NCBI GenBank assembly: GCA_006503475.1
Contig: RSEH01000011.1
Coordinates: forward strand, 124,001-188,000
Direction: 5' to 3'
Length of the DNA: 64,000 nucleotides
DNA from: Stentor roeselii
Taxonomy: Eukaryota > Ciliophora > Heterotrichea > Heterotrichida > Stentoridae
Shown: positions 6,304-62,734 of the stretch, in pieces
Layout of the letters: the number at the start of each line of letters is the position of its first letter
How positions within the stretch are numbered: position 1 is the first letter of the stretch
Notes under the pieces: generated by a model
Databases searched by the model: none
The model's input: only the letters and a program-made list of their open reading frames with translations
What the model was told of the DNA's origin: nothing
Made by a program: the position numbers and the translations under genes

Positions 6304-6491
6304 ATTAAAATATCAACTTCCAACAACATTCCCTAAAATCTTTAAAATTTAACCCTTTACTAAAAATCCCTGAATCAACCCCAAAACATTTAAATAATTT
6401 TTTCCCAAAAAAAATCCATTCATTCCTCCCACCCACCCAAAATAAACCCCATACCAAAAAATCTCTAAACTCATTGGTTCTTAAATATAAA
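6304..6491. promoter_or_regulatory. Bidirectional MCMBP/MCM3 promoter region
   Basis: 188 nt separate the two divergent start codons and hold no ORF of note. The plus strand is C-rich and G-poor (long C/A/T runs, 'cccacccaccc'), as upstream of other plus-strand genes here. A TATA-like 'aaatataaaatg' abuts the MCM3 start. Co-regulation of the pair is an inference from the shared spacer. Confidence 0.5.
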
Positions 6492-26813: not shown

Positions 26814-28196
26814 ATGGATGAAGTTAAAAGGCCTCAAAAAGATAGCAGCTCCGGGGCCTTGGTCTTTAAAAGTATTTCACTGCACGCGACGCGGTACACC
26901 TTATGGTCCAAAACATCAACAGGGGAGCCAACGGAATTTCTAGTCTCTTCCATAATTCCCTGTTTCAAGTTATCCAACAGCTTCAAAAACTCACTCCAGA
27001 GGTTCTTTCGTGACTTAAAAAAACATCCATCCTCATCCCCAGTAGTTTCCGCATCTCCAGCTCTGTTCAACCCTCAAGAAATCGACCTGATCACAGTGAC
27101 TTCCCTTCCAACAAGCAGCAATGACCTGTTCTTTCCGCTTATCCAATCCCAAAGCTTCGACAAGTCTCACTACGAGTCAGCAATCGAGAAAATCTCTTCA
27201 AAAGTCGAGAACTTCGAAGAATTCGAGGTTTTAACAGTTCTCGACCTATGCATTCCTTTTTTTACTTTTCAAGTTCAAGGAAACGCGCTAAAACTTTTAA
27301 TGCATTTGGTACTTCCAAGTGTTTCATTCAACATGCAACCGATTTCGAGTCTTAAACTTGTGTCGACTTCACTTTGCCAGAACTTGGCGAAAAAAGAGCG
27401 GCGGGATTTTTCTGCTGGTTTTATGGCTGTTGACGCCAAAATGAGACTTTTGCCTTTAAAGCTCGCTGATAAAAATGTGCTTAAATATCCTTTGGTTGGA
27501 GTCTGGGCAACTGGATGTCGAGATGATTTTGCTAAGGATGGAAATCTTTGGGCTTTGTTTGTCAGGTTTGTTGAAACTGTTTCGGTTAAAGAAAGAATTT
27601 CACTTAATCCTCCTGCTGGATCTTTTATTTTTACTAACTTTGCACAGAAAATCATGTTTTATGAAATTACTTTCAATGGAAAACCCGCTTGGAAAGTTAT
27701 TAGCAAAGCGGTTTCTGCCTCTGCTGCTGAAGTTCGATTTGGAGATGATGGAAATTTTGGGTATTTTAGGAGTTTAAGGGAAAAAAAAAGCTTTACTGCT
27801 TCGACGACTTCTTCAGAAGGAAGGTACAGCAGAGTCAGGGGAAGTTTCGAGTCGTCATCAACTGAAAAGATGATAATGAAGCAGAATGAGAAGTTGAGAA
27901 GCCTTGAAAAACAAATAAACTTGCTTCAGCATGCGCTGAGTGAGCCGAAATTAGTAAATGCTGAGACAAACACGACATCTTACTTTAAAGACTCAAACAG
28001 GATAAGTACTCGAAGACTAAGTAATGAAATCAGGACAAGTGTTGAAGGGTTTCGAGGTAACCCTTTAAGGAATTCATGTAATGTTGAAATAAGGCATGCG
28101 TTTGTAGATGGGACTATTAATGTTCCGAAGATTATTTATAAGCCCGATAGTGAAAGTGATGAAGAGCTTTCTTTAGAACTAAATCAGCATTTTTGA
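26814..28196 (+). CDS. STIL/Ana2/SAS-5-like centriole duplication protein
   Basis: 460 residues. The N-terminal half resembles the conserved STIL N-terminal domain: 'LKYPLVGVWATGC' (about 222-234), then 'LWALFVRFVETVSVKERISL' and 'PAGSFIFTNF', like the STIL pattern PLVGVWLSG...WACxLRF...ER...SGNF. A short isolated coiled coil 'MKQNEKLRSLEKQINLLQ' (about 356-373) matches the STIL/Ana2 central coiled coil in length and style. The C-terminal 60 residues could hold a divergent STAN motif. Such proteins recruit SAS-6 with PLK4 to start centriole or basal-body assembly. The start 'aataaATGG' is preferred; an overlapping ORF at 26665 lies in another frame. Confidence 0.62.
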   Translation: MDEVKRPQKDSSSGALVFKSISLHATRYTLWSKTSTGEPTEFLVSSIIPCFKLSNSFKNSLQRFFRDLKKHPSSSPVVSASPALFNPQEIDLITVTSLPTSSNDLFFPLIQSQSFDKSHYESAIEKISSKVENFEEFEVLTVLDLCIPFFTFQVQGNALKLLMHLVLPSVSFNMQPISSLKLVSTSLCQNLAKKERRDFSAGFMAVDAKMRLLPLKLADKNVLKYPLVGVWATGCRDDFAKDGNLWALFVRFVETVSVKERISLNPPAGSFIFTNFAQKIMFYEITFNGKPAWKVISKAVSASAAEVRFGDDGNFGYFRSLREKKSFTASTTSSEGRYSRVRGSFESSSTEKMIMKQNEKLRSLEKQINLLQHALSEPKLVNAETNTTSYFKDSNRISTRRLSNEIRTSVEGFRGNPLRNSCNVEIRHAFVDGTINVPKIIYKPDSESDEELSLELNQHF

Positions 28197-28763
28197 AACG
28201 AGAGTATTGAGGTTTATGTAAATTTTAATTGATTTATTCTTGAATTTTGGATGGTTTAGTTTTATGTTTAGAGCTTTTCAAGAGATTTCAGATTGATTTA
28301 TTTTGGATTTTTAGTGATTATGATCAAAGAAATTGAATAAATAAGAAGAGACTGTGAAAAGGCTACAATTTTGATATTTTTATATCATATAAAAAATATA
28401 TTTAATTTAAATTATCTCATATTTGTTCATGGTAAAAACGAATGATATTTCTATTCATCTTTCTAAAATTACATATAAATGCCAAACAAACCAACTCTCA
28501 GAAAGCATCTCTACCATAAACCCATCAATCAATCTCAACTCAATTTAAACCCAACCTTATAACTCAAACCATCATATCAGAAAAAATCCTTCTCCCAATT
28601 TCCAACCTCCTCATTTCATCCAAAATCAGAAAATCTCTAACCATAATCTAAAACTCAAATCCCACTAAAACTCTGCCCTTCAAAAAAACCTAAATCCTTA
28701 AAAAAAATTAAACTTAAATAAAATTGCATAAATCACTAAAATCTTTATTCCCACCAGTAAAAA
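28197..28763. other. Intergenic spacer upstream of glutamine synthetase homologue
   Basis: 567 nt, very AT-rich. The first 300 nt are G-rich and C-poor with 'atatatttaatttaaatta' near 28396. The last 290 nt are C/A-rich and almost G-free on the plus strand. No ORF, tRNA or repeat recognised. The C-rich part is presumably promoter or leader. Confidence 0.5.
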
Positions 28764-29885
28764 ATGAACGAGCTCAAATCAGCCGTGATAGATTTTTCAA
28801 AGCGAAGCACAAACGGAATGATGATAGTCGAGTACATCTGGATAGGTGGAAACGACTTAGACATTCGATCAAAATGCATGGTAATCTCAGAAATGACTGA
28901 ATTTGAAGACCTGCCAGTCTGGAACTACGACGGCTCTTCAACTAACCAGGCCTTAGGCCACGACAGTGAAATTTTAATAGTTCCAAGAAAAGCTTACCCA
29001 GACCCTTTCCGTTTGGATAACCATCTTTTGGTCTTATGTGATACTTGGTACCCTGATGGCACTCGCACTGACTCCAACTTCAGAGCTTTGTGTCAAGATG
29101 TCTTAAAAGGCTGTGAATCGGAACAAGTTATGTTTGGAGTTGAACAACAGTACATCTTTTATCGCAAGTTTCAGAATTGGCCTCTTGGATTCCCGGTCGG
29201 AGGATACCCGAAACCTCAGGGACCTTATTATTGTGGAGTTGGAGCTGATGTCAATGTTGGAAGGAGGATTGTGGATACGCATAATCGCGCTTGTCTTTAT
29301 GCTGGACTTAATATATCTGGTATGAATGCTGAGGTTATGCCTGGACAGTGGGAGTTCCAGATTGGGCCTTGTCAAGGAATTGATATTGGGGATCAACTTT
29401 GGATGGCTCGTTACCTTCTTCTTCGATCAGCAGAGTTATACGGTATCAACGTCAGCTGGGATCCCAAACCAGTAGCCTCAGACGAATGGAACGGTTCGGG
29501 AGGTCTATTCAACTACAGCACAAAATCCTCCAGAGCCGAAGGCGGCATCAATTCCCTTCTGACCTACATAAAAAAACTTGAAACTCATCATCTAAAATTC
29601 ATCGAAATGTCAGGAATCGGGAACCAAAAGCGTTTAAATGGTAAAAACGAAAGTTCAGACTGGCACTTTTTTTCATTCGGAATCGCTGATCGCATGGCTT
29701 CAGTTCGAATCCCCAAAAGAATTGAGCAACTTCGAAAAGGGTACATCGAGGACCGAAGACCAGCAGCGAACATGGACCCTTATCTCATCAGCGCTGCGAT
29801 CACTGACATCACCTTGAAAGACGGACTGCATTTAGGTCAGATAAGCGAGCAGTATCAAAGATTTCAGAAGAAGTTGAATAGGTAA
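28764..29885 (+). CDS. Glutamine synthetase (GSII) homologue with altered metal ligands, probable pseudoenzyme
   Basis: 373 residues, normal length for eukaryotic GSII. The fold is clear: 'WNYDGSSTNQA', 'PQGPYYCGVGAD', 'RACLYAGLNISGMNAEVMPGQWEFQIGP', 'GYIEDRRPAANMDPY'. Two metal ligands differ. The ExE pair is 'E127-Q-Q129-Y', so the second Glu (human E136) is Gln. The His of 'GAGCHTNFSTK' (human H253) is Leu248 in 'GSGGLFNYSTK'. The His of 'GFHETS' is also changed ('GKNESS'). The ligands in 'AEVMPGQWEF' and 'EDRRP' are kept. Known GS enzymes need both metal sites, so glutamine synthesis is doubtful; a structural or regulatory role is an inference. Confidence 0.88.
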   Translation: MNELKSAVIDFSKRSTNGMMIVEYIWIGGNDLDIRSKCMVISEMTEFEDLPVWNYDGSSTNQALGHDSEILIVPRKAYPDPFRLDNHLLVLCDTWYPDGTRTDSNFRALCQDVLKGCESEQVMFGVEQQYIFYRKFQNWPLGFPVGGYPKPQGPYYCGVGADVNVGRRIVDTHNRACLYAGLNISGMNAEVMPGQWEFQIGPCQGIDIGDQLWMARYLLLRSAELYGINVSWDPKPVASDEWNGSGGLFNYSTKSSRAEGGINSLLTYIKKLETHHLKFIEMSGIGNQKRLNGKNESSDWHFFSFGIADRMASVRIPKRIEQLRKGYIEDRRPAANMDPYLISAAITDITLKDGLHLGQISEQYQRFQKKLNR

Positions 29886-29925: not shown

Positions 29926-30525
29926 TTAGCTTATCACTGATCTGATTGTAGAGAGAAGAAAAGCACGTTTTTCTGACATCGCATTGACAACTGCTGAAGG
30001 AATACTGCCCTTAGGGTCAGTTCCGCTGATATGAGTGACTTCTGTTGCGATGTCTTCAATGTTTTTCAAGTAGAAGGCTCCAAGAACGACCTCAGCTCTG
30101 ACAAAATCAGGAACCTCAGGAAAACCGACATCAACACTTTTGGCGATAATAAAGATATCTTCTCCTTTCAGCACTTTTTTCGATGCGAACACAACATCTC
30201 GACTTGAAATGGGCCAATTAAGTTTAATTTGTTCATGCAAGACTTTAAGTTCACCAAAGTCATGAAGAATTTCAGTTTTTTCTAAATTTTCCATGTAAAG
30301 TTTTCGTTTGCTGAGGTCAGATAAAAATCGAGCCACGGCTTCTGGAGGATGGCCTATTGTTCCAACTCCTTTTGTTAACACCCTGTCTCCTTCTGAGGTT
30401 CTGTATCCGTGAACGTCGTCTTTTACTCCGAGGTCTTCCCAGTTTGTTCTGCTTTCGAGAGACTCGAATTCGATGAAAGCTTGATGGATCGCTGCTTCTG
30501 CTGATTCTCTTGCCTGACCTTCCAT
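29926..30525 (-). CDS. START-domain lipid-binding-like protein
   Basis: 199 residues, essentially one START domain: 'RVLTKGVGTIGHPPEAVARFL' near the middle, 'LKVLHEQIKLNWPISSRDVVFASK' (the hallmark WPxSxRDxVxxxxW region of START proteins) and a C-terminal helix 'GSIPSAVVNAMSEKRAFLLS'. START domains bind lipids in a deep pocket. There is no membrane or targeting segment, so it is probably cytosolic. Start context is 'aaataaATG'. The convergent glutamine synthetase homologue ends 40 nt away. Confidence 0.82.
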   Translation of the reverse strand: MEGQARESAEAAIHQAFIEFESLESRTNWEDLGVKDDVHGYRTSEGDRVLTKGVGTIGHPPEAVARFLSDLSKRKLYMENLEKTEILHDFGELKVLHEQIKLNWPISSRDVVFASKKVLKGEDIFIIAKSVDVGFPEVPDFVRAEVVLGAFYLKNIEDIATEVTHISGTDPKGSIPSAVVNAMSEKRAFLLSTIRSVIS

Positions 30526-31653: not shown

Positions 31654-32937
31654 ATGAACCAGTTTAAGTGCTCAGTATTCAACTGCACGAAACCAGCAAC
31701 AGAAGGTTGTGGAACATGCAAAAAGACCAGCTGTCCAACCCATTCTCATTCATCATCCTGTCCATCATCATCAATCCACAACATATTCCTCGACCTAAAA
31801 AACTCAAACAAATCAAAGCACATAAACTTACTAATATCAGCAGCCTCTAAATGTTCCTCTCTTCGTTCAGATATCCAAAAATCAAGCAGCCTTTTAATCC
31901 AAAAGATATTAAGAGAGACCGAATCACTAACAAATGCTCTCTACAAACTTGAAGCCGAGACAATATCTCTTCTTCAAAAGCTCCAAAGCTACGAAATTAT
32001 CCAAATCTATCAAAACAACAATCCAGCAGATCAAAACCTAGTAAACTACTTGAAACAAGGTGAAAAACACGAATTATTCGAAAAAATTCATTACTTTCGT
32101 CCAGACTTCCTTCAAATGATTCTCAGAGACTACCAAGAGTCATACATCAACTCATCTCCATATCAACACTCAATAAGCTACATGGCTTTCTTCGCCAGAA
32201 ACTCTTCCACTTTGACCTTGTACCACATAAAAGATAATACAATCAAAACTGAAAGATTTGAAGAAAAAATGGCTGAAAGAGCTGGATGGTGCTATTTACC
32301 TGATGGGAAAATATTTTATTATGGAGGAAGAAAAGATCAAAATGTTGGAGTCGCGTGTTTAATAAACCCTTCAACTAGAACTATCGAATTTTTGAAGAGA
32401 GGTCCTGAACTGCGAAATTTAGGACAACTTACTTATTATAAAGGAGAAGTTTATGTTTTTGGAGGATTCGCAAAACAAAAGGCTTCCAGTAGTGTTTTGA
32501 AATTTAGTTTGATGAAAAATATTTGGATGAATTTAAATGATATGCCTGTAGCTTCTGAAAGCTGCTGCTCTTGTTTTTATGGGAATTCTATTGTTGTCAC
32601 TGGTGAGAATATGATAAGTTTACTTGATTATGATAGACAAAATGACTCTTATAAGATTTTGATGGATATTGAAATTGGGTTTAAAACTGTTTGGAGTGCG
32701 AATGGAAAATGTTTTTTACTTGTGAAAAATTGTATTTATGAGTCTGAGATATTTAATAAATTCTCCTGGAAATCTTATTTTGAAACTACTGTTATTGTTA
32801 ATCATACTCGGCTTATGGCCCCAACTGTGAAAAGAGGTGAAGAGATTTTTATATTATTTGAAAATAGACAACTGTATTCCTTCCAGTTACAAACACGAAG
32901 GATTAGATTAGTTACTGAGATTGCTAAGTTTAGTTAA
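31654..32937 (+). CDS. B-box-like zinc finger / kelch-repeat protein, tandem copy 1
   Basis: 427 residues. An N-terminal Cys/His knuckle 'KCSVFNCTKPATEGCGTCKK' continues with TSCPTHSH (C..C..CxxC..CxxH, B-box-like). A coiled-coil region lies at about 55-125. Kelch-type beta-propeller repeats fill about 205-425 ('LPDGKIFYYGGRKDQN', 'YKGEVYVFGGFAKQ', 'CCSCFYGNSIVVTGE'). The order B-box, coiled coil, propeller recalls TRIM-type architecture, but no RING precedes it. It is paralogous over its whole length to the next gene, which follows on the same strand after 247 nt. Start 'aataaATG'. Confidence 0.82.
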   Translation: MNQFKCSVFNCTKPATEGCGTCKKTSCPTHSHSSSCPSSSIHNIFLDLKNSNKSKHINLLISAASKCSSLRSDIQKSSSLLIQKILRETESLTNALYKLEAETISLLQKLQSYEIIQIYQNNNPADQNLVNYLKQGEKHELFEKIHYFRPDFLQMILRDYQESYINSSPYQHSISYMAFFARNSSTLTLYHIKDNTIKTERFEEKMAERAGWCYLPDGKIFYYGGRKDQNVGVACLINPSTRTIEFLKRGPELRNLGQLTYYKGEVYVFGGFAKQKASSSVLKFSLMKNIWMNLNDMPVASESCCSCFYGNSIVVTGENMISLLDYDRQNDSYKILMDIEIGFKTVWSANGKCFLLVKNCIYESEIFNKFSWKSYFETTVIVNHTRLMAPTVKRGEEIFILFENRQLYSFQLQTRRIRLVTEIAKFS

Positions 32938-33184: not shown

Positions 33185-34465
33185 ATGAATGAAGTCAAAT
33201 GCTACGTGGCAAACTGCTCAAGACCTGCAGTCGAAGGTTGTGAGATTTGCTCTACTACCAACTGTTCAGTTCATCTTCATTCAAAAGCATATCCTGCACA
33301 CCCAACAGTTCCAATATCAATAATCCTCACAGAAGAAATCAAAGAAAGCAAAAGATCTATACTAACCTCAGTGATCTCGAAATGCACTTCAACCCGTTTA
33401 GAACTAATCAAATCCTGCGAAACTCTGGTAAAAAAGATACAAAATGACACAAAATCCCTGTTAAAGACCCTAAACCAACTTCAAGAAGACGCACAATCAC
33501 TTCTAAATCTCCTCAACAGCTACGAAACCCTCCAAGTCTACAAAAACTCATCACCCAACGAGTCAAAACTTCTAAAATTCCTAAACAATACCGAAAAACC
33601 CGAAATGCTCGAACAACTATCCCTTATCCATCCAGAAGTTTTATCATTACTTCTAAAAGATTTCCTTTCCAGTTTCATAAATTCATCTCCAACAATGCAC
33701 AACATGACATTTTTTGCCTTTTTCACTCGGAATTCAGGAACTTTGAACTTATACAACATCAAAGAAAACCAGTTTAAAACAAGTAAACTTTTTGATACCC
33801 TTGGAGACCAGGCCGGGTGGTGCTACTTGCCCGACGGGAACATTTTTCACTATGGAGGTCGAAAAAAATCAGAAAATATTGGAACGACTTGCATAATCAA
33901 CCCTTCCAATAAAAACGTGAAATATTTAAGTGATGGAAAAAGAAAGTGCTGTGTAGGACAAGTCACGTTTTACAAAGGAGAGGTTTATGTTTTTGGAGGA
34001 TTTAATAAGGCTCCGCTTAAATCAGCTTTTAAGTATAGTTTTTTGAAGGACTCTTGGAATGACTTGAATGATCTTCCAATGGCTTCTCAGGACTGCTGCT
34101 CATGTTTTTATGGAAATTCTATCATTGTGACTGGAGAAAGCTTTTCAGGATTGTATGAATTTTGCAGGATTGAAAACTCTTATAAAATCATGGCGGATTT
34201 TGAACCTGGGTTCAAAGCTATTTGGAGTGCTAATGGAAGGTGCTTTTGTTTAAGTCAAAATCAGGTATTTGAAACAGCAATTTTTGAGAAGTTTGTTTGG
34301 AAACGGTATGAGACTTGCTTGGATTTTGAACCTAAACGACTTATGGCCCAGACTGCGAAGAGAGCTGATGAGATTTATATTTTGTTTGAGAATAAAAAGC
34401 TGTTTGCTTTTAAATTGGACAGTCGGAAAATGGTCTTTGTGACTGACTTACCTAAATTTAGTTAG
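33185..34465 (+). CDS. B-box-like zinc finger / kelch-repeat protein, tandem copy 2
   Basis: 426 residues, collinear with copy 1: knuckle 'KCYVANCSRPAVEGCEICST', coiled coil, then kelch propeller ('LPDGNIFHYGGRKKSEN', 'YKGEVYVFGGFNKA', 'CCSCFYGNSIIVTGES'), ending in the same 'KFS' tripeptide. The shared 'SSPxxHxxxxxAFFxRNSxTL' block links the two across the middle. The gene pair is best explained by tandem duplication followed by considerable divergence. Start 'gcataaATG'. Function unknown; scaffold or substrate-recognition roles are typical for such domain sets. Confidence 0.82.
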   Translation: MNEVKCYVANCSRPAVEGCEICSTTNCSVHLHSKAYPAHPTVPISIILTEEIKESKRSILTSVISKCTSTRLELIKSCETLVKKIQNDTKSLLKTLNQLQEDAQSLLNLLNSYETLQVYKNSSPNESKLLKFLNNTEKPEMLEQLSLIHPEVLSLLLKDFLSSFINSSPTMHNMTFFAFFTRNSGTLNLYNIKENQFKTSKLFDTLGDQAGWCYLPDGNIFHYGGRKKSENIGTTCIINPSNKNVKYLSDGKRKCCVGQVTFYKGEVYVFGGFNKAPLKSAFKYSFLKDSWNDLNDLPMASQDCCSCFYGNSIIVTGESFSGLYEFCRIENSYKIMADFEPGFKAIWSANGRCFCLSQNQVFETAIFEKFVWKRYETCLDFEPKRLMAQTAKRADEIYILFENKKLFAFKLDSRKMVFVTDLPKFS

Positions 34466-37216: not shown

Positions 37217-40200
37217 CTAGTCGTTTGTTTGGCAAAGCAAGGCTACTCCGAGAAGAGTCCACTTGTCAGGGTTTTCTTCTGATGATAAGTCGACGTAAAC
37301 TACGAAGTTTGTGCTGAGTCCAGTACTGCTTAAAATTCCAGCCCTTGACGTAGTCTTATATAAAGGACATAGGTAATCTCCTTCTTTAGCGACATAGTTA
37401 TTGGTAGGTAAAAAATGTATAACAGGCATAGTAAAGTAAATCTCTTTTTCCAAAGCATCAATCAAAATCATCTCTTCTCTATCCCACCTGGCAGCTTCTA
37501 AAAATAGCCCATAAATAAAAACTCCATCTGCAGGGTTCTTTCTAAACTCCTGAAAGCTCCAAGGGGTGACTTCAAATGTAAACACAAGACTATCAATAGG
37601 CAGAGAGTACTTCCGAGAATGTGTCTGAAGCACTGCAGTTAAAAACGACTGAGGAAAGAAAAACCCAGACAGCCAGTAACAAGACTGGTATCCATACTTG
37701 ACCCAATCATAAATAAACTTGACTCTCGCATTAAAGTCAGCCACCCAAGACGCTAAAGACTTGAGCGACGGGTATGAAACTTTTTTCCACATGTCAGGAA
37801 CTGAAGAGTTTAAAAGACTTGAAAACATTTCAGACAACTCTTCAGTCATGATGACTTTTCCCTTAATCGCATTTCGCAGGTCCTTCAAAGAACTTCTCAT
37901 TTTATTCAAGAGCCGGTTGAACTTTTCGACTTCTTGAAACAGAAAAGTGCTCAAAGACGGGATCAATCCGTTTGAATCCACTGCCAGGTGGTCATTGTGA
38001 GCAGCTCGGAGATCCATGTTGTCCATGAGGCTGTTTGAAAGACTTTTACACATCGAGTGAACCATTTTATCAGAGTCAGCAGCATCTTCACTTACTTCTT
38101 TCGGTTGAGTTTGAATGAGACATTGAATGATTGAGTCACTTGTCTGTGTTTCAAGAGTGATCTGCGCGTTTATGTTCATTCCGAACACCTCAGGAGGGTC
38201 GACATTAGGAAGACTAGAGATGTATTCCAAGAAGTCACCTTGACTAGGAACTTTAAAAACTTCATCTTCTGTATAAAAGTAATTTTCTTCTAAAGTCTCC
38301 GCATTGCAGCATTTATTAAACATGGCCATGAGACAGACCTGGTCGTTTTTATCAGTCACCCTGCCGCCGTAGTTGATATTCCCAATAATATACTGAATAC
38401 CTTCCCAAGGCACATCTTCATTTTCTTCAACCAGGAGCTTCAACAGTTTAATCGAAGTGATGAAGTCAGAGTCATTAAACTCGTACCTGATATTAAACCC
38501 CAAAGGGCCGAATTTTCTCCTTTCCACAGTCAAAGCATGGAAAAAACTCACTCCAAAGACCATCTTTTTCCAGATCTCCGGACGAGGCACTTCAGCACTT
38601 GTTGTGTCCACCTGGCTGAAAACTGCAGAAATATTCGACTTAAGACCTGAAGGCGGCTCAGTCGTCACTTTTAAAGAGTTCTGAAGAATACTCACTGGAA
38701 ACGACTCAGAAGGCATGGATGTTAAAATCACTCGAAAGTCTCGATGTCCAGCACTGTCTTCTTGCAAGTTATCAACAAGTGTTTCTAATGTCGGAAGCCA
38801 GGACCGTGACAAGTGGCAATTTTGAAGCAAAAGCCACCATCCAGCTGCTTTTGACTTGTCAAAAGCCTCTTGGGCCTTAGCACCTTGTCCTTGTCCTAAA
38901 CTGATCATGACGAGTTTTTCAGACATTCCTCGGTCTTTCGTGATTTTTAAAATGTTTTCCACTGGGTCAGTCCCCTGCGACAAGATGAAAACTATTGGAG
39001 TCTTTTTATCACTTTCATCGAATAAAGAGTTCAGATCAGCGGGGGGCACCTGAGAAAAGAAAGGCCCGAGCGCAGCTCGGGCAAATGAATCAATCGCGTA
39101 CATGATCTTTTCAGGCCGTAAGGCCTTTACAAGTAAAAGCTTGGCGAAAGGGTCTAGCAAGTTGTACTTGCCAGGAGGCGATTTGGTTAAAACATCAGTG
39201 ATGAAATCAGTCCATTCCCGAGAGCGAAGCTCGAAATCATCTGCGAGGCCTTCAAATCCAGAGACTTTTTCAAGTTTACAGAGAAAGTCCCATTGTAAGT
39301 CATTTAAAACAGAACTCATCGGGTTCTTTTTCGCGTTTTTCTTAGCGACCAGGCCAGCTCCTCGAATGAAGAACTTCCAAGTTTCATTAGAAATTTTTTT
39401 CAGGTTTTTCCAAATTGCGACTGCGAAGAGAAACGCGAGGATTTTCTTGTCTTTTTCGAAAAGCCCTCGACAAATGACTTTAAATATGGTCTTTGTCACG
39501 TTTTCTATTATGGCTGATGACCGGTCTGAAGATGAAGCAGTTGACTGGATAGATGAGCAGAAGAGTTTAGTGTAAAAGGCCAAAGAGTACTGGTACATCG
39601 GGTTTATCCCTGGAATGCTGGTGATCACGAAAAATAAAACACTTCCTCTTATCGCGATTTCCCGAAAGGCGTCTCGAGCAAGGTTAACCTGATTTTCCAC
39701 TTGTGTAGTCGAAGCAACTCTTCTTGTAATGTCCTTTGAAGTGCTCTTGCTTCTCTGAAGTGCCGAGATGAGGTTCAAGTTATCTAAAATAAACCCTTGA
39801 CTATCAGCGATCATATCTAAAATAGCATTTTGAGTCTCTTCCAAGAGTTTCTGATCAGCAGCAAGACTGACAATAATATCATCTCTTTCTCTTTCCAGTC
39901 TCGGGTTCTCCAGTCGAACCACTTCAACAAGCAGCTGATCTTCAAGTCCAGATTCAGTCACTGTAAAGTTAACAACGTTTAAAGTTCCAAAAACTTCCGG
40001 CAAGAACTGAGGATTCGACAGTCTACATTGAAGCACCATGAAAAAACCTTCATCGTACATCACTTCATGGTCAGTCAAGCGAATCACAAGTCTTCCATCG
40101 TCTTTTTTGTAAAACTTTCGCGAAAGCAAGTTGGTCAATGACGAGTCCTGACTTTCGCCAACGTCTTCGAAAAGAACTGGTTTCGCTGAAGTCACAGCTG

Positions 40201-43200
40201 ATTCAAGTATGCGAAGAACGTCTTTTGACTCTTTAGACCCTGGCTTGACTGGCTTCAGTTGGACCAGGTTTTGCTTTTTAAAAGAATTTTTCAGCCATCT
40301 TCGCGCCTGGTCTTGGGGGTCGATGATTATAGGCCATTTGCAGGAATTCATCACGATTATTGAGTTTTCTTGAGATGTCTGGTCTTTTGGAAGACCTGAG
40401 ATTTGCCATTCACGGATCTCGATAGGTTTGCCTAAGGTTGAGATGAAGGAGTAGTTGTCGGAGATTGGAAGTTGCAAGTGATTTGCTAGGATTATTGTTT
40501 TTTCTTTCAATTGGCTTCGGAAACGGTCGGTGAAGACGCCTTGGTAGTTGATTACTGAAGCGTTTAGCATTGATTCGACTTCTACGAATTTCAGGTAGTT
40601 TTGGATTTGGTTTACTGTTTCTTGCCATTTTATACCTTCTTCTGATAGGAGCTCTAGAAGAAGCTCTGCTCGTTTTACTCTGTCCATTGTTAGTTTTATG
40701 TCTTTTTCTAGTGTTCCTACTTTTTGCTCTGTCATTGCGCACTCGTCTTTTAATTTGTTTACTTTTTCTTCTACTGATCTTAACTCGCTTTGCTTGCTTT
40801 CAAGCTTTTCCATGTCGCTTTTCAACTTTGCTTGCATTTGAAACACCTTTTCTCGCTTGGGCTTCACGATTTGGAATATCTCTGTGTAGTTGAACATTGC
40901 ACGGCACCAGATGCAGAGGCTTTTTGCTGCTTCTGAACTTTGGGCGACGATTTCTGGCTGGAATTCTGGCTTGGAGACTATTATTCGCAGTTTTTTGAAG
41001 GTTGAGTTGGACACTGATTCTTTCGGGTAATTCACAATCCGCTGCAAGAAATCCATTTGTCCAAGAACAACAATAGCATTATTCCAGTCAGACCTTTCCC
41101 CAAGCAGAATACAAACAGCTTCCATAACCATTTTAATAGTTTCAGGAGGCTTCAGGTACTTTTTAAACTCAATAATATGACTTTTATTTTTTTCCAAGGC
41201 CTGAACCGCTTTCAAAGCATTTTCTAAAATAGGAGTAGCTTCAGCCAGGTCTCTTTCAGCATCATCACTCTTCAATTTACAATCCTGAAACTGTATTTCA
41301 ATAAATTCCGTTTCTTTTTCAACAGAAACCTGCAAGTCAACCGCAGCTTTAGTCTCTTTCTGCACCTCCAAATAATAATTCTCAGCTCTTTTCTTCTGAA
41401 TTTCAAGATCTGGCATCATTTCCTGCAATTTTATCTGACTTTCCGCAATAATTTTTCTAGTTTCATTCAATTTGCTAAGTCCATTTGTGAGTTTCGTGCT
41501 TTTTTTCCACAAGTTATCAGAAGTTTTCTTAAAGATTTTAGAAAAAACTTCAAAAAAGTCGAAAAAAAGTTTTGGAGTTACATAAGCTGGTCTTTTTAAC
41601 ACCTTGTAAAAGGAAAGACCTTCGTTTTCAGCTGATAAGTGAATAGCGCTTGCGAAGTTCGCCAAAGATTTTATTTGAATTTTTAGGTCTGAGAGCTTGG
41701 AGGTCGCAACTGATAAAAGTGCTTCTTCTGGCCAGTTGTCGAACCATTCGATTGTACTGCAGTTCACGAATGATGGGAACATCCTGCACCGGTTTCTTAA
41801 AGTGCTTCCTACTGGAGAGGTGCAGAGCAAGATGTGAAGGTTGTCTCGGACTCGGTTGATGAACTCTTTGTAAATGGTTTCTTTTGAATCTTCTATACCT
41901 TGGTGGTCGACTAGTTCTGATCTTAGGGAATTTACTATTTCTTCTACTTCTTCTTCGCTGTAGAGGTCAGATACTTCTCCAGAGTTGATTAAACTATTAA
42001 GATCTTCCAAAAAGCTATCAAGTATCATATGTTGATCAGAAAAAACAAAACTGACCGGTTTCCCCTCAACTCCTGACTTCCTCGTCAACTTTTTCAAATC
42101 CTCATGAAAATTTTCAATATTATACCCTTTGATAAGCTGTATCGAAAACGGTTCAAACATTAAAATCGAAGACGAAAGAAACGCCAAGCTTTGTTTCCCG
42201 CTTCCCCCAACCCCAACGAGCATCATATGTCCTCTAGGACAATAAATTCCTCTACAAACATGCAAAACATGTGCAAGAGCCTCTTCAAACATTTCCAAAG
42301 GCATTTTCTGTCGACTTCTAATATTAAAGTCATCAAGTCTATCAATAACAAACCTTTTAATTCTTTTTTTATCAACGATTTCCTCATAAATTCTTTCAAC
42401 ACTATCCAAATTCATAATATTCGAGAACTGAAGCGGGTGAGTTTCAAGCCAGTCATCTTCAAGAAAGCCTGACTTGAAGTACTTCATCGCAGTGGTCGAC
42501 GCAGCCTTGTTGAACCAGACCCGGTCCAAAGGGTTTGTGAGTCGATCGAAAAAGACTCTGGAGCTTTCATGAAGCCACAACTTGGTGAGTTTATCAGTCG
42601 TTACAAGGGAATTCGGAGTGGCCAAGGTGATGCCTTGGATAACTTTTCCTACATCTCTTAAATTGTATTTATAATGAAACTTCGAAGGCGTCGGCTTCAA
42701 CTTGTTCACAACTTTTTCGTATAGTTCGACTGTTGACTGGATTATCGTCGATATCGAACGGCGGATAGGGTCCGGGTAGATTTTTTCGAAGTGAGTTGAA
42801 AGCACTGGCGAGTAAAGACTTAGCAGCACTGAAGAAGAAGGCTCTGATATGAAAAATAAGTGAAAATGACGCATGAATCTTGAGGATAAGTCTTGAAGAT
42901 TTGAAGTACCTGTCGCTGAGACTATTAAAAAATTGCTGATTTTCTTGAAAAATCCTTTTTTTCTGTCGTAGAAGCCCTGGCTGTCGATTAATTGTCTTAA
43001 AAGCTCGATTGGGGGCTGGGAGTCGAAAGCGTCCTTGCCCGGCATTCCGACGTCATCTATAAAAATAAATAGTTTTCGTGAAGAACTCGCGGAATAAACC
43101 CCTGCTGCTTTCCTTTCAAGTTTTGATTCAATGAAATTTTGGGTTTTTTCACTTGAAGTCCTTGCAGAAAAATTGGCGTGGGACAAGTCGATTTCTTGAT

Positions 43201-46200
43201 TTTTTAACAAGTCTTCAACGTGCAAACTGATGATCGCTGATTTCCCAACACCTGACCCTCCTGCAAGCATAGAGCAGAAGTTCTCAGTTGAAAGCATTTT
43301 TAAGACTGAAGTGTAAGCAACAGTTGTCGTTGTCGGTATCAAGATCTGCGATAGACTCAGTCCTTTAACGACTTCAAAATGAGGGATTTTTTCTTTCCAG
43401 GACTTAAAAACATAGTCTTTGTCTAAAAAGTACTCAAAAACCGTGTCAGTGATGGGAAACGGCGAAGTCTGTGCGAAGAGATGCCGAATGGTATTAGAAA
43501 ACTATTTGAAACTTACCCTTTCATGTTTCGAGCTGTCCAACAACACTCCTAAGCTCCAGATGCATGCAAAAGCGAAGACACTATGAAGGTACTTGACTTT
43601 AGGTTTATTTTTCAGCATGACAGTCAAGATATTGCATAAACATCGAACTTTATGAATCTCCGACGAGGGAATCATATCATTTTCAGCATCAAAAGCTCTG
43701 AAAACAAGAGGTAAAATATTCCCAAACATATTCTGAAGTACTTCTTTCAGTTCTTTTCCCTCCAGTTGTTCAAGCCAAGAAGTGGCAAGCATGTTCCAAG
43801 TCAAGTTATCATGAGGAATATAAACCATTCCACATCGACTCACAGTGGCCGGAGAAGCTTTGCTTAAATCTGCGACTTCAAACAAGATCCTCATTGATGG
43901 TTTCAGTTTAATTCTTTCACCATTCGGCAAACAAAGCATCATATTATCGTCAAGGACCGTATTCATGCTTTCAATCCAAAGTGAATCAACAGGCCCATCA
44001 AAGACGACCCATCGAAGTTCAGGGTTGGGTCCATTCGTGATTTCTCGAAAGATACTCGAAGCAAGTCCATCTTTCCAATCCTGTGTCAAATGGTTCATAT
44101 CTCCATAAAGCTCTCCTATCGTTATCGACTTCGGGTTCAAAACACTTAAACTCGTCCCTTTGCACGTCGATAAAGTCCTGATCAAAGTCGACTTCCCTGA
44201 CATTGCCGGGCCTACCAACATGCTTCCATATCTCACTGACATCGTATCAGCTAATTCAAACACTTTACGAATAAAACCCTCAGGACCTTGAAGTCCTTTC
44301 TTCATCAAATCCGCTTTAATCAATTCAAGAAACGACTCATTCTGGACCTTTGGCAAAGAAACTCCTGGAAACAGGTCCTGAACAAGTGCCTTGAACAACA
44401 AGACATCTTTTTGAACTAGTTTAGGAATATTGCTCTCGTTCATCGCTTGAATCAAGATATTTTCCTCAGCTGTTTCCTCGAGTTTTCTCCTGATATCTCC
44501 AGCAGTGAGTAGAACACTTTTAAGAGCTCGAAGTCCGAAGTCATAATGAAATTGTGAGCTGAGCTGTTCGTTGGCCAGTTTGTAAAGCTGGACTATTTTT
44601 TTACTGAGTCTTGAAGCCTCGTGAAAGCCTTCAGCCATGAGCATGATTTCAGCGATCATCGAGTAGTCAGGTATCATCATGGAGACTGGTCTGAAGAGGA
44701 CTTTAAGGTTATCAGGAAGTTCAGTGCGACCTGCATATCCTGGATTCATTGTCACGAAAACACCGAATCCAGACCTGATAGGAATTTTTCTGTTTTCAAA
44801 TTGAAATTCTTTCATATTGTTCTGCAAAGCGTTTTTTATTGTCTGCAACTGCTGCGCGATCACTGATAAGACCTCGATGTCAATTCGGTTAAACTCGTCT
44901 AAACAGCTCCAAGCGCCTTGTTGAATGAGACCTGCGAAGAGTCGACTGGTCATTTTATAAGTGATTTGCTCTGAGCAGTTAAAAACAATGCATAACTGTC
45001 CTAAAGCCTTCGCCAGGTCCTTCGTTGATTCAGTCTTGCCTGTTCCAGCAGGGCCAGAAGGACAAGCTCCAAGTTTGACATTAAGAGCAGAGGTGATAGT
45101 GATCCAACATTTTTCAGTTAGAGGAGTCACCACAAGTCTTGAGGTACATCCAAGGTACTCATAAGCATATTGACATGAAAAATTTATTTGCTTTATCAGG
45201 CAAATATCACCGTCCCAGTAGTACCTTAACTGCTTTTGCCATGAAAAGTCTGAATTCGTTTCTACTTCAAGTTCCTGAAGATTTGCAAGAATATCTCGAT
45301 TATGGACAGAAGTCGTGATCATCGCGACTATCAGCTTTCTTTTTAACTCGTTGACTGGACTTTTCACCAGGTCTACCAAGTGGTTCAGGTTTCGATGACA
45401 GGTGTTAATCCATTCTTTTAAAACATTTGGCGAGTCGTGAATAGAACCGAGAGTTAAATCTGTTTCAATGCACCAGTTAATGCTTGCCACTGTTGATATC
45501 GCCTGGCAGGGATAATTCGACAACACCCAAGGTTTAAACTGAGATTTTTCTGAAGACTCTTTGCAGAATTTCATTGATCTCTCAAGGGTTTCACACATCG
45601 CTACTTGAACGTTTAAAAGCCACTCCTCGACATTTCCTCTTGCTTTCAGCGGACGACCTTCAAAGCTGACTATTTCTCCTTCAGAGGAAATCATTGCAAG
45701 AATATCAGCGGCTTTCAGGTCTTCACCAATTTGTAACTGGTGAATGTTCTCGAAGCACTTGCTGATGAAAGGTTGAAGTGACAGAGGGTTCGCGGCTTGG
45801 GCGAGAACTTTAAGCAGCTCGTCATCTGAGATGAAGTAAAAACGAGGAAAGACTCCTCTTTTGTCTTCTAAGTATTGAGAAAGGTTTTTTTGGACTACTT
45901 CAAGTGAAGTGTTGAATTTTTTTAATTGATCTAAGAGTTTTCCTTCGAGAACCATGATTTTTATTGCGTTGTTGTTGAGGTTCGTTCGCTTCATGAAACC
46001 ACGGTAAAATTTGTCGACTGTTTCGTAAGTTTGTGACTCGTAAGCCAGTTTTCTTTTAATGTCTTGAGAACTGAAAATAGCTGAAAAGTACATCCAGGTC
46101 TTTTGAAGTGTTGCCCATTCATCAAGCACGTCTTGCACTGTGTTCAGATGGTTTCTCCACAGGTTTACCTCGTCTCTCAAAGGAGTCACGTAGCGATTTC

Positions 46201-49200
46201 CTGAAATAAGACTGAGTTTCGCTAAAGAGTCTTCTAAATTCATAACGAACTCTTCAATATCCCCTAAAATATAAACATCTTTTTCTTTAAACTGTTGAAG
46301 AGGAATTTCTAGTTCATCCCAAAGATCAACAACAGCTTTTAACTGAGCTTTAAGTTCAAATTCCTGACTGGCTTGAACAGAAATAGCTAAAATTTCTTCA
46401 TTGTTTTCTTTAATCTTAAATTTTTTAAGAGAGTTTAAAGTAAGTGAATCATTTAATTCAAACTGATCAGTGAGTAACTCTCTAAGCATTTTCCAGTGAG
46501 TTTCTAAGAAAGGTGCCCGAAGTGCAGAAACAATAGGCATCAGTTCAAGGATATCTTGGACTTTTGACTTTAATGTATCAAGAACTGAAGAGTTTTGCAA
46601 AGCCGATTCTGACCTTCTTACAATTTTGTAAAATTCTTCAGCTTGGATGGTGGACTGTGAAAAATCGATGAGTTTTACTGGAGTGTATTGGATCCGAGTG
46701 TAAATTTTCTCGTATTCTAAGAAACCTTTCCATAGTTTTTCACGGATATCGACTTGCTCTGCTGCTGCTTGGACCTCAGAGAAAACATGAACTGTTTCTC
46801 CAAGTACTTCTTGAAACTTTGAGAGATTTCTTGAGTTTTCACTGAATTCTTTACATTTTATTTGCATACTTGTTAGTTCTTGGAGAATTATTTCTGGATT
46901 ACTCTCGATTTTTAAGAATTTTTCTTCTGCTATTCTCATTGACATGAGATTCACCTCATCTAAGAACTGTGGAACCATGTTTTTTAGTTTTTTCTTGTAA
47001 ATTGCCATGTTTTTAGCTGCTGTGCTTTCAATGTTGATGATGTATCCATTTAGCATGGTCATAATTGACATAGTTAAAGTGTATTGGTCAGTATCTTCAG
47101 TAACTAATCCAATATCTGACCTAAGTCCTAAATTGTACAAATACCCTAAAAGGTCAAGATTTCTCTTAACTTCTGAAATCTGGTCATTCACCTCCTGCAA
47201 TGAAACCTTCTGAATCACGAACTCTTCGACCGTGAAAACTTTAGTTCCAAGAATGCGAGCTGATTTTGAAGCCCAGCTTCTACAACTTTCTACTTTTTTT
47301 CTGATAAACTTTAAAAGGATATCTTGGCTGACTTTTAATGAATCTTTAGAGTTTTGAATGAGAAAGTTCTTGACTTTTAAACAATCTATTCTGAAAAGAC
47401 CAGAATCCATCAACTTTGGAGCTTTTTCAATTAAAGCCTTTTGACTGCGGAACATGGCAAAGGTCCAGTCAAAAGAGTCAACTTTTTGCATCAAATTTTC
47501 TTTTTCAAGTAGTTCAAATCGAATTTCAAGATTTTTCCAATAAGCTGAAAGTGCATAGTTAAAAGACTGAAAATGAATTTTTGAGTCTTTGAAAGCTTTT
47601 TTGATTAAACCATTGAGTTTTGTTCTGATTTTCTTATAATAATTCGAGTCCTCAAGCCAACTAATCACATCCAAAAAGATATCTTCAGCGACAGTCCACT
47701 TGTCAGCGACTTTATCATCCCATTCTTCCAAAGCAGTGACATAATCTTCCATTTCTGGGTGTCTACTCCACCGCTGCATGTTTTTCAAGGCATCAAGTCC
47801 TTCAGCGATGATATCTTCTAAAGTGATAACAAAAGTTTTCCTATCTGGAGCAAGTTTAAGCCAAAAGTTTTGAATCTCAGGAACAACAAAGCAAGGAACA
47901 TTCAAGTTTTCACCGTCAAAGTTCAAATGAATGTTAGGGTGGAAGTCCTCAGGAGGGGACTTCCTCGGGACAAACTCATTTTTCAGCGGAATTTTTTTAC
48001 TGGAGTCGACTGGAACCCTGTCAAGAACCAGTTCAATTTTAAATAAAGGAACTCGGTTCCTTTTTTTCTGGTCTGAAAGAAGGATCATTGACTTGTCTGA
48101 CGACAGGTCTTCAGAAAGTTGACTGAACTGTTCGTATATTTTAAGTAGAAGTTCACGGACTGATGAGAGGTAAATATTTTGAAGACTTTCTAAAGTAACG
48201 AAATCTGCGAGATAAGTGAACCGAATGAACCTGGAACATTCTTTTCTAAGATCAGCGCGTTGGTCGTAAGACATGTTTTCAGGAAAGCCCATTTTTTCAT
48301 ATAAAGGGCAGATTTTCCTGACCTGTGGGAACATCTGAAGGTTAAGTTTTCCGTAGTTCTTCTTTTCCGCGATGTCCATCACGATCTCCTCACGAAGTAG
48401 GTTCATGATATTGATAACTCCTTGTCTCACGTTGATTCTCAAGCTCTTGCCAGTCTCTTCAATAACAGTTCTAACTTCAGCGATTTTCGCCTTTTGTCGA
48501 TCGACGAATTCTTTTAAAGTGACCTGGTCAAGATGCCCTGGAATTTCCACAAACTTGATTTTTTCCATATCAAGACACATCCCTCGATGAGTTAAAAGGA
48601 CTTTCGAGTAGCTGCTATCAGCGGAGTACAACTTTTCCTCAAGTTTTTTCCTTCTTTTATTCCTTCGATGTCGGTTCACGTTTCTTTCCCACATCTTCAC
48701 GATTTTCCAGACACGAAACTGTTGAAAAAACGCGACTTTTTTAAGACTAAAAAACTGTTTCCGCTCAGCTAAAAACTCTTTGAAACTACTGAACTCGACA
48801 GGAGACCCTGCAACAAAAGAAGAGAGTCCAGCAGCAGAAAGTGTGAAATAGTCTCCATTCTCCTGACTTCTAGCAACTTCAGCAGAGACCACTTCAAAGT
48901 CATTAGCTTGTCCGACAGGTTCTCTTAAAAGATAAACAAACTGATTATGTTCAGCAGTTTTATCACGAATACTTCTTATAAACAAGTCAAGTCTTGATTC
49001 TTCAACAGAAGACTCAACTTCAGCTTCATGTTCCATCATTTTCGGGACAGGTGTAAAAATTGAGTCTTTTCTAGCAGTTGCTGGTCGATTCGTGATTTTT
49101 TCAATTAAACTTGCAACTCGTTCCTCATCAGTTTTGCTTGGTTCAAGTCGAAAAGTATGAACTTTTGTTATGGAAGTCAAATTCGTTCTTGCTGTGCAAG

Positions 49201-49579
49201 GTCTACTCGGTTGGTTCGCTGTTCGAAGGATGAGGCTTGTCGGCACTTTTGAAGTTTTTAGAGCTGATGACGGTCGCAAGGCTCCTGCACTTGTAAAGCC
49301 CGTGATTGAAACGCGACTTGTACTTGGAATTAGAGTCAGTTTGTTGTCGTTTGTTGTGGGAAGAGTTTGAACTGTTTGCACTGTTTGAAGCCGGTGGGAG
49401 GAAGATGTCGTCACTCTTGGCTTTTTTACTGATGGCAAAGGGTTCGTGCCCAGGCCTCTTTCGATTAAACGGTTTTTCAGGCTTTGCGTTTTGTCGATTT
49501 CTGATATGCCGAGCTTGGGAATTACTGCTTTTGCATTCATTCGGAAGTTTTCAGGCCGTGCTGATTGATTCCTCTTCAT
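37217..49579 (-). CDS. Axonemal dynein heavy chain, inner-arm single-headed type (one 15-nt intron)
   Basis: CDS is complement(join(37217..43501,43517..49579)), about 4115 residues, full-length. P-loops: AAA1 GPAGTGKTE (about 1506) with Walker B 'CLDEFNRI', AAA2 GPAMSGKST (about 1791), AAA3 GGSGVGKSA (about 2100), AAA4 GVGGSGKQS (about 2455). The stalk coiled coils lie near 2690-2760 and 2940-3000, around the microtubule-binding region with 'LKPPETIKMVMEAVCILLGE'. AAA5/6 and the C-terminal domain follow. The AAA1 segment 'FNCSEQITYKMTSRLFAGL' and overall length point to the DNAH3/6/7/12 class, closest by eye to DNAH6. The two long ORFs are one gene. The start codon is 7 nt from a divergent gene. 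Confidence 0.93.
43502..43516 (-). other. 15-nt intron in dynein heavy-chain gene
   Basis: Sense sequence gtaagtttcaaatag, phase 0, A at position 10. It is the only break in a frame of over 12 kb. Splicing joins 'SKHER' to 'FSNTIRHLFAQ', and the 58 codons between the two apparent ORFs then read through. Confidence 0.95.
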
Positions 49580-62025: not shown

Positions 62026-62734
62026 GAATTTGAATTTTATTGTTTTTTGGATTTTGAAGAGATTGACAGGCGGTTTTAGGATTTTTGTTTTTTAGGAATG
62101 TTGAAAGGATTTGAGGTTTTTTGGGAATGGGGTGGAGGTTTTGTGTTTTTTATTAGAGATTTTTGGATTTTTTGGAAAGTTGTCTGGAAACTATATTGGC
62201 TGATTGGGAATCTTTTATTGAATATTCTGGATGGCTTTAGTATTTTTAGGTGGTTTGTAATAATGTAATTTAAAATTGTTTGTTAGAGTATATATGATTT
62301 TTTTATTAATATAAAGAAGTGCTCAGAACTTTAAAGCTAATATTTGTCACCTATTCCATTATACCAAATGACCTGAAAGAGATCAGGCTTAAAATAATCA
62401 ACTTTCTTAAGATTTTCTATGAAGTAAAGTAATTCTTGTCTGTTTACTTTTTAATAACGAGATATAAATCTCATTCTTATCTCCTTTATCGCAATCCTTA
62501 AACCTTATTCACTCAACAATAACCCTTCACAATAGCCCATCTAATCCTCAAAGACCCAAACATAAAAACCATTTTAATTGTATCTTCCAAGATACAAATC
62601 TTAAAATCTTACATATACAAGATATAAATCGAATCTATGAAAACCTTGTACTTTCAACTTCAGTCGAAGAAACCTAAAAAATCTTAAAAAATGTCAAAAA
62701 TTTCGTATCTTAAAAGACCCAACCTCCAATTTGA
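62026..62734. other. Intergenic region
   Basis: 709 nt. 62026-62230 (upstream of the minus-strand kinase) is G/T-rich and nearly C-free on the plus strand. 62480-62734 (3' side of the minus-strand coiled-coil gene) is C/A-rich. The core is A/T. No ORF, RNA or repeat recognised. Confidence 0.5.

Follow-up and report, generated by a model that had tools for sequence, protein, structure and literature searches.

The question raised by this locus is what a glutamine synthetase (GS) would be kept for after two of its six cation ligands have been replaced. The gene lies at 28764..29885 on the forward strand of the window, by which we mean the whole 64,000-nucleotide stretch analysed (positions 124001-188000 of contig RSEH01000011.1, C40, in an assembly of 44.4 Mb and 522 contigs), and consists of a single open frame that runs from ATG to TAA over 373 uninterrupted codons in the standard genetic code, which is the code used by Stentor.

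The product of this gene, the window copy, is a class II GS (GSII). Its residues 10-351 match the solved GSII chain 2d3a_A with an E-value of 8.4e-118 (phmmer), and among the NCBIfam models GlnII fits best (E 1.9e-108, compared with 3e-9 for type I); the GlnII scores of 362.5 bits for the window copy and 383.8 bits for its paralogue on contig C72, described below, both lie under the cut-off of 500 bits of a model that describes bacterial and archaeal proteins. In Pfam the GS catalytic domain passes its cut-off; for the beta-grasp domain 33.4 bits are needed, and the window copy scores 29.7 bits and the C72 protein 33.0 bits. A TATAAAT word at 28474..28480 (+), 290 bp upstream of the ATG, may be a promoter element; the same word stands 194 bp upstream of the ATG of C72 and occurs within 350 bp in 1 of 19 other window ORFs. 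Upstream of several genes the sense strand contains hardly any G (8 of 300 nt in 28464-28763, 3 of 150 in 6342-6491 and 2 of 150 in 62026-62175), and other genes on the same list do not have this near-absence of G.

A neighbour gene at 26814-28196 (+) has a Pfam match to STIL_N (E 2.5e-10), a family linked with centriole duplication, and immediately downstream of the GS gene a convergent gene at 29926-30525 (-) encodes a START-domain protein (Pfam E 1.6e-12). Two adjacent genes for Kelch-motif proteins, at 31654-32937 and 33185-34465 (+), are alike along their length by eye and form an apparent tandem duplicate. Further on, a gene in two ORFs at 37217-49579 (-) is dynein heavy chain-like by appearance and contains a 15-nt intron, GTAAGTTTCAAATAG, that holds an in-frame stop and beyond which the frame resumes; counted by length, GTA..YAG words in the window have no excess at 15 nt. 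An intron this short, together with genes that read through in the standard code, agrees with a heterotrich of the Stentor kind; in Blepharisma, introns of 15 and 16 bp and the reading of UGA as Trp have been reported (PMC9942806).

Six cation-coordinating residues are named for GSII-1a of Medicago (PMC3975887), and these are Glu129, Glu131, Glu192, Glu199, His249 and Glu330 in the numbering of the maize enzyme 2d3a. Aligned to this chain, the window copy keeps four of the six (E127, E190, E197 and E329) and has lost two (E129Q and H248L). Codon 129 (29148..29150, +) is CAG and places Gln where maize has the ligand Glu131, in the motif GVE127-Q-Q129-Y; codon 248 (29505..29507, +) is CTA and places Leu where maize has the ligand His249, in the motif NGSG-G-L248-F-N. 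Both readings had been proposed in an earlier note on this DNA, the first as an ExE pair changed to E127-Q-Q129, and both proved correct. The corresponding human residues are presumably E136 and H253. Compared with eukaryotic GSII (maize 2d3a and Medicago GSII-1a), the window copy has in common its length, its homology, four ligands and the arginines, whereas it has Gln, Leu and Asn at the positions of Glu131, His249 and His296. Asp56, Glu296, Arg290, Arg310, Arg315 and Arg331 are retained in the alignment to maize 2d3a. Further changes within the pocket or next to it, all private to the window copy, are W123M, I126V, V200I, T249F, T297S, N309D and G311M. The earlier note had also stated that the rest of the GSII fold and the other ligands were kept, which is accurate for the four other ligands but too generous in view of these additional pocket changes and of a branch about four times as long as that of the sister gene.

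Among relatives the two positions are as near to invariant as that note had claimed: position 129 is Glu and position 248 is His in 82 of 82 relatives, which are prokaryotic or viral and comprise the best 80 of at least 581 confirmed in genome contigs together with two of two viral loci, a near-duplicate pair. Both residues are also present in all five solved chains compared, out of 19 matching chains. One relative, L021, carries EQE and GAHTN. With L021 left out, the other 81 relatives were thinned to 51 by discarding those 90% alike, and these gave 100 invariant columns, at which the window copy alone departs four times (E129Q, D241E, H248L and T297S), C72 alone once (A180C) and both copies together 14 times. 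Two of the four lone departures of the window copy fall on the six ligands (hypergeometric P = 0.017, a post hoc value because the ligand loss was itself the finding tested). The two viral loci are near-duplicate IMG/VR contigs (L088, L089 1501-2547) with a GSII gene that has kept both the Glu and the His, and the branch of L088 is long.

The paralogue is a GSII gene at C72:9899-11017 (L002 1501-2619) that encodes 373 amino acids with all six ligands and aligns with the window copy without a gap over 373 residues at 62% identity. It is the second, canonical GS that the earlier note had proposed to search for, and its presence removes the case, named there as refuting, of a genome with no other GS. 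C72 is like the window copy in being 373 residues long, collinear and its sister, and is unlike it in having six ligands and a short branch. Its activity is presumed, as it has Cys295 at the position of maize His296, which is His in 81 of 81 aligned relatives and Asn in the window copy. Only these two GSII genes were found when the assembly, which may be incomplete, was searched with either protein, both Pfam GS domains, a class I model and the class III N-terminal domain. Across the whole assembly there was no class I match beyond the two GSII genes (TIGR00653, PF00120), and the class III N-terminal domain, by which alone class III was sought, was not found; a search of the assembly with the DNA of the window gene returned the gene itself and nothing else, so that no recent duplicate is seen. 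A weak match inside a 2010-residue frame (E 0.14, 32% over 63 residues) was considered as a third GS gene and taken as chance.

In a tree of both copies, three solved chains (maize 2d3a; 4is4, which we take to be the Medicago enzyme; and 9wp6) and 32 of the 82 prokaryotic or viral loci, the window copy and C72 are sisters with a support of 100/99 and a common stem of 0.61; for this tree the tool warned that long branches meet. The branch of the window copy is about four times the longer (0.55 against 0.13), and private changes number 36 in the window copy and 14 in C72 (P = 0.003). Relative-rate counts of window copy to C72 are 40:18 with 2d3a, 39:16 with 4is4 and 40:12 with 9wp6 as outgroup (chi-square 8.3, 9.6 and 15.1), and range from 23:23 to 36:14 with six prokaryotic or viral rows (chi-square 0 to 9.7). 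The rate asymmetry is thus clear when the outgroup is near, but some far outgroups show it weakly or not at all. Between the two copies dN is 0.306 (NG86); the dN/dS ratio, put forward earlier as a check, gave no estimate because synonymous sites are saturated. The history that best explains the two sequences would be that a GSII gene was duplicated in this lineage, after which C72 kept six ligands and the window copy lost two.

Could the changed codons be trivial? An artefact of sequencing, assembly or gene model is scarcely credible, even though another window gene does contain a 15-nt intron of the kind that might be hidden here: the window copy aligns with C72 over all 373 residues without a gap, which leaves no room for an intron at the two codons, and the changed codons are each two bases from those of C72 (CAG against GAA, CTA against CAC) amid other differences, so that assembly error and hidden intron were both rejected. 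A single base separates the Gln129 codon from the other Glu codon, and the CTA of Leu248 is two bases from either His codon.

A gene that has lost its function and stands in early decay is favoured by the long branch, about four times that of its sister, and we consider it very improbable. Against it stand 373 codons free of stops and frameshifts and ungapped with respect to C72, and the differences between the copies, which are distributed over codon positions 1, 2 and 3 as 109, 82 and 212. The codon index of the window copy (0.719) is inside the range of 0.694-0.799 for 19 of the 35 listed window ORFs, and its GC3 (0.437) is slightly above the 0.29-0.433 of the same 19 ORFs. In addition, when neutral point decay of C72 was simulated, the stop-free fraction fell from 0.041 at 10% protein divergence to 0.001 at 20%, and at 30% none of 1000 runs was free of stops, so that neutral decay as simulated nearly always yields stops past 10% divergence. 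The description of the gene as intact and not decaying therefore stands on the open frame, the ungapped alignment, the codon-position pattern and the simulation, and the gene looks constrained.

If the gene is constrained, does it still encode an enzyme? If the class I scheme applies, Glu131 is a ligand of metal site n1 and His249 one of n2; by this geometry each of the two main metal sites would be one of three ligands short, and glutamine synthesis is likely to be lost for that reason. Mutational data from other organisms point in the same direction. In GSII of Fusarium fujikuroi, nine of 14 mutants are reported to be glutamine auxotrophs, among them those in E131/E133 (printed 'E131/E1331') and in H250 (PMC3829961), and His249 of the Phaseolus (bean) enzyme is termed essential in a review (PMC3430217). 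By residue numbering rather than by a published alignment, E131/E133 and H250 of Fusarium are the two positions lost in the window copy and E200 is Glu199 of maize; the Glu pair was mutated jointly and is not shown as a change from Glu to Gln, which limits the comparison with E129Q. The same study reports that mutants in E200, E297 and R311 grew like wild type (PMC3829961), and the growth of a mutant in E200, a ligand by numbering, means that loss of one ligand is not always fatal, which counts against a dead enzyme. Weighing these data with the two substitutions, we consider it likely that the window copy cannot make glutamine.

The counterpart of this conclusion is an altered or residual enzyme, in which the metal sites would have been rebuilt around Gln and water for weak GS activity or other ATP-dependent chemistry. 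Its appeal is that four of six ligands are present together with Asp56, Glu296 and the Arg residues listed above, that the frame stayed open and that the Fusarium mutant in E200, by numbering another of the ligands, could grow. The auxotrophy of the Fusarium mutants mapped to both lost positions and the essential His249 of Phaseolus speak against it, as does a pocket further altered by W123M, T249F and G311M; moreover, those GS relatives with new substrates that we know of retain their metal ligands. We regard an altered enzyme as quite unlikely. A non-catalytic role, as the earlier note proposed, is the likeliest reading; the addition that this role would be in the manner of lengsin did not hold up, for reasons given below.

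How a protein of this kind might act is suggested by the architecture of the family. Each GSII pocket is described as lying between two adjacent subunits, one of which contributes its N-terminal and the other its C-terminal domain (PMC3975887), so that the window subunit could complete the site of its neighbour. We compared segments on this basis. Codons 53-68 (maize 53-68; 28920..28967, +), in the beta-grasp and including D56 and S59, were taken as neighbour-serving and have no window-private change in 16 columns; codons 136-155 (approximately maize 138-157; 29169..29228, +), an inter-ring contact, differ from C72 in three of 17 columns, none of them window-private. The inter-ring contact regions are those named in PMC3975887; segment limits come from that one paper and partly from our own choice rather than from coordinates, those of the neighbour-serving segment being chosen, and of the inter-ring stretch Pro236-Ala246 only 236-244 was counted, which avoids overlap with an active-site segment.

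In the active-site segments six of 33 columns have a change private to the window copy and none has one private to C72; in the inter-ring and neighbour-serving segments together the respective counts are 0 of 42 and 1 of 42, and in the remaining columns, flap included, 30 of 266 are window-private. By Fisher tests the active-site segments differ from the contact segments (6/33 vs 0/42, P = 0.0055) and the contact segments differ from the rest (0/42 vs 29/259, P = 0.020); the active-site segments are not significantly faster than the rest (6/33 vs 29/259, P = 0.26), and the active-site contrast between the window copy and C72 is not significant either (P = 0.17). The contact regions are thus protected in both copies and the pocket is not clearly worse than the rest, and the conservation of the contacts is partly general to GSII, as C72 also has just 1 of 42 columns private. 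The C-terminal tail is diverged (5 of 24 identical). Overall, the pattern fits a subunit that still assembles and can serve its neighbour, short of a proof of mixing.

The reading that competes most closely is a stand-alone, non-catalytic homo-oligomer, a nitrogen sensor, scaffold or structural protein that does not mix with C72. Lengsin, a class I GS relative of the vertebrate lens, is intact and has a role other than catalysis, and serves as a class I precedent; the longer branch and the diverged C-terminal tail are also in favour of this reading. In Fusarium GSII, mutations are reported to split regulation from catalysis, which also favours such a role; in the same study (PMC3829961) the E131/E133 and H250 mutants lost regulation too, making no bikaverin and no gibberellin, and this loss of regulatory outputs in addition to growth speaks against a simple Fusarium-like sensor. 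The ring-contact segments, moreover, have no window-private change, so that the window copy and C72 could hardly be kept from mixing if they share one compartment. We therefore hold a stand-alone protein to be unlikely, if less so than an altered enzyme.

In a judgement that comes close to evenly balanced, we tentatively suggest instead that GSII was duplicated and that the window copy is a pseudoenzyme working as a pseudo-subunit with C72. In this model, (i) the window copy would enter GS decamers together with C72 as a pseudo-subunit, (ii) its intact N-terminal part would complete the active site of the neighbour, (iii) its own site would be dead or merely ligand-binding, and (iv) GS activity or stability would be adjusted by the relative amounts of the two gene products, in the way that the prozymes of trypanosomes act on their partners. 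Mixed assembly of GS polypeptides in Medicago has been reported, according to a title cited in PMC3430217. The fully specified version, a GS prozyme in which a dead class II subunit lends its N-terminal half in mixed decamers and its dose sets cellular GS activity, is possible but more doubtful than the general one.

The comparison with lengsin fails on ancestry: lengsin is of class I, whereas the window copy is class II by NCBIfam and stands beside a class II paralogue, and a class II protein next to a collinear class II paralogue points to a regulatory pseudo-subunit rather than to a protein of the lengsin type. With modest support, the window copy thus seems to resemble a prozyme more than lengsin. 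One mark of a prozyme, the loss of catalytic residues together with a retained canonical paralogue, is present in the pair of window copy and C72. In trypanosomatids dead paralogues are reported to activate their partners, as in the AdoMetDC prozyme and the dead DHS paralogue (PMC3663545, PMC5201418). These systems are like the present one in that a protist keeps a dead paralogue as well as an active one, with inactivity predicted here; they differ in that their enzymes are unrelated to GS and in that hetero-oligomers have been shown for them, while the GS pair is known from genes.

Among the papers listed in the literature searched, at the level of titles and abstract openings and with few subscription papers covered, no class II GS pseudoenzyme was described. 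GS is among the most conserved enzymes. If the window copy is indeed a retained class II pseudoenzyme next to one canonical GS, the two genes of S. roeselii would constitute a simple two-gene system for asking whether a ring enzyme in which neighbouring subunits share each active site can be regulated by a dead subunit.
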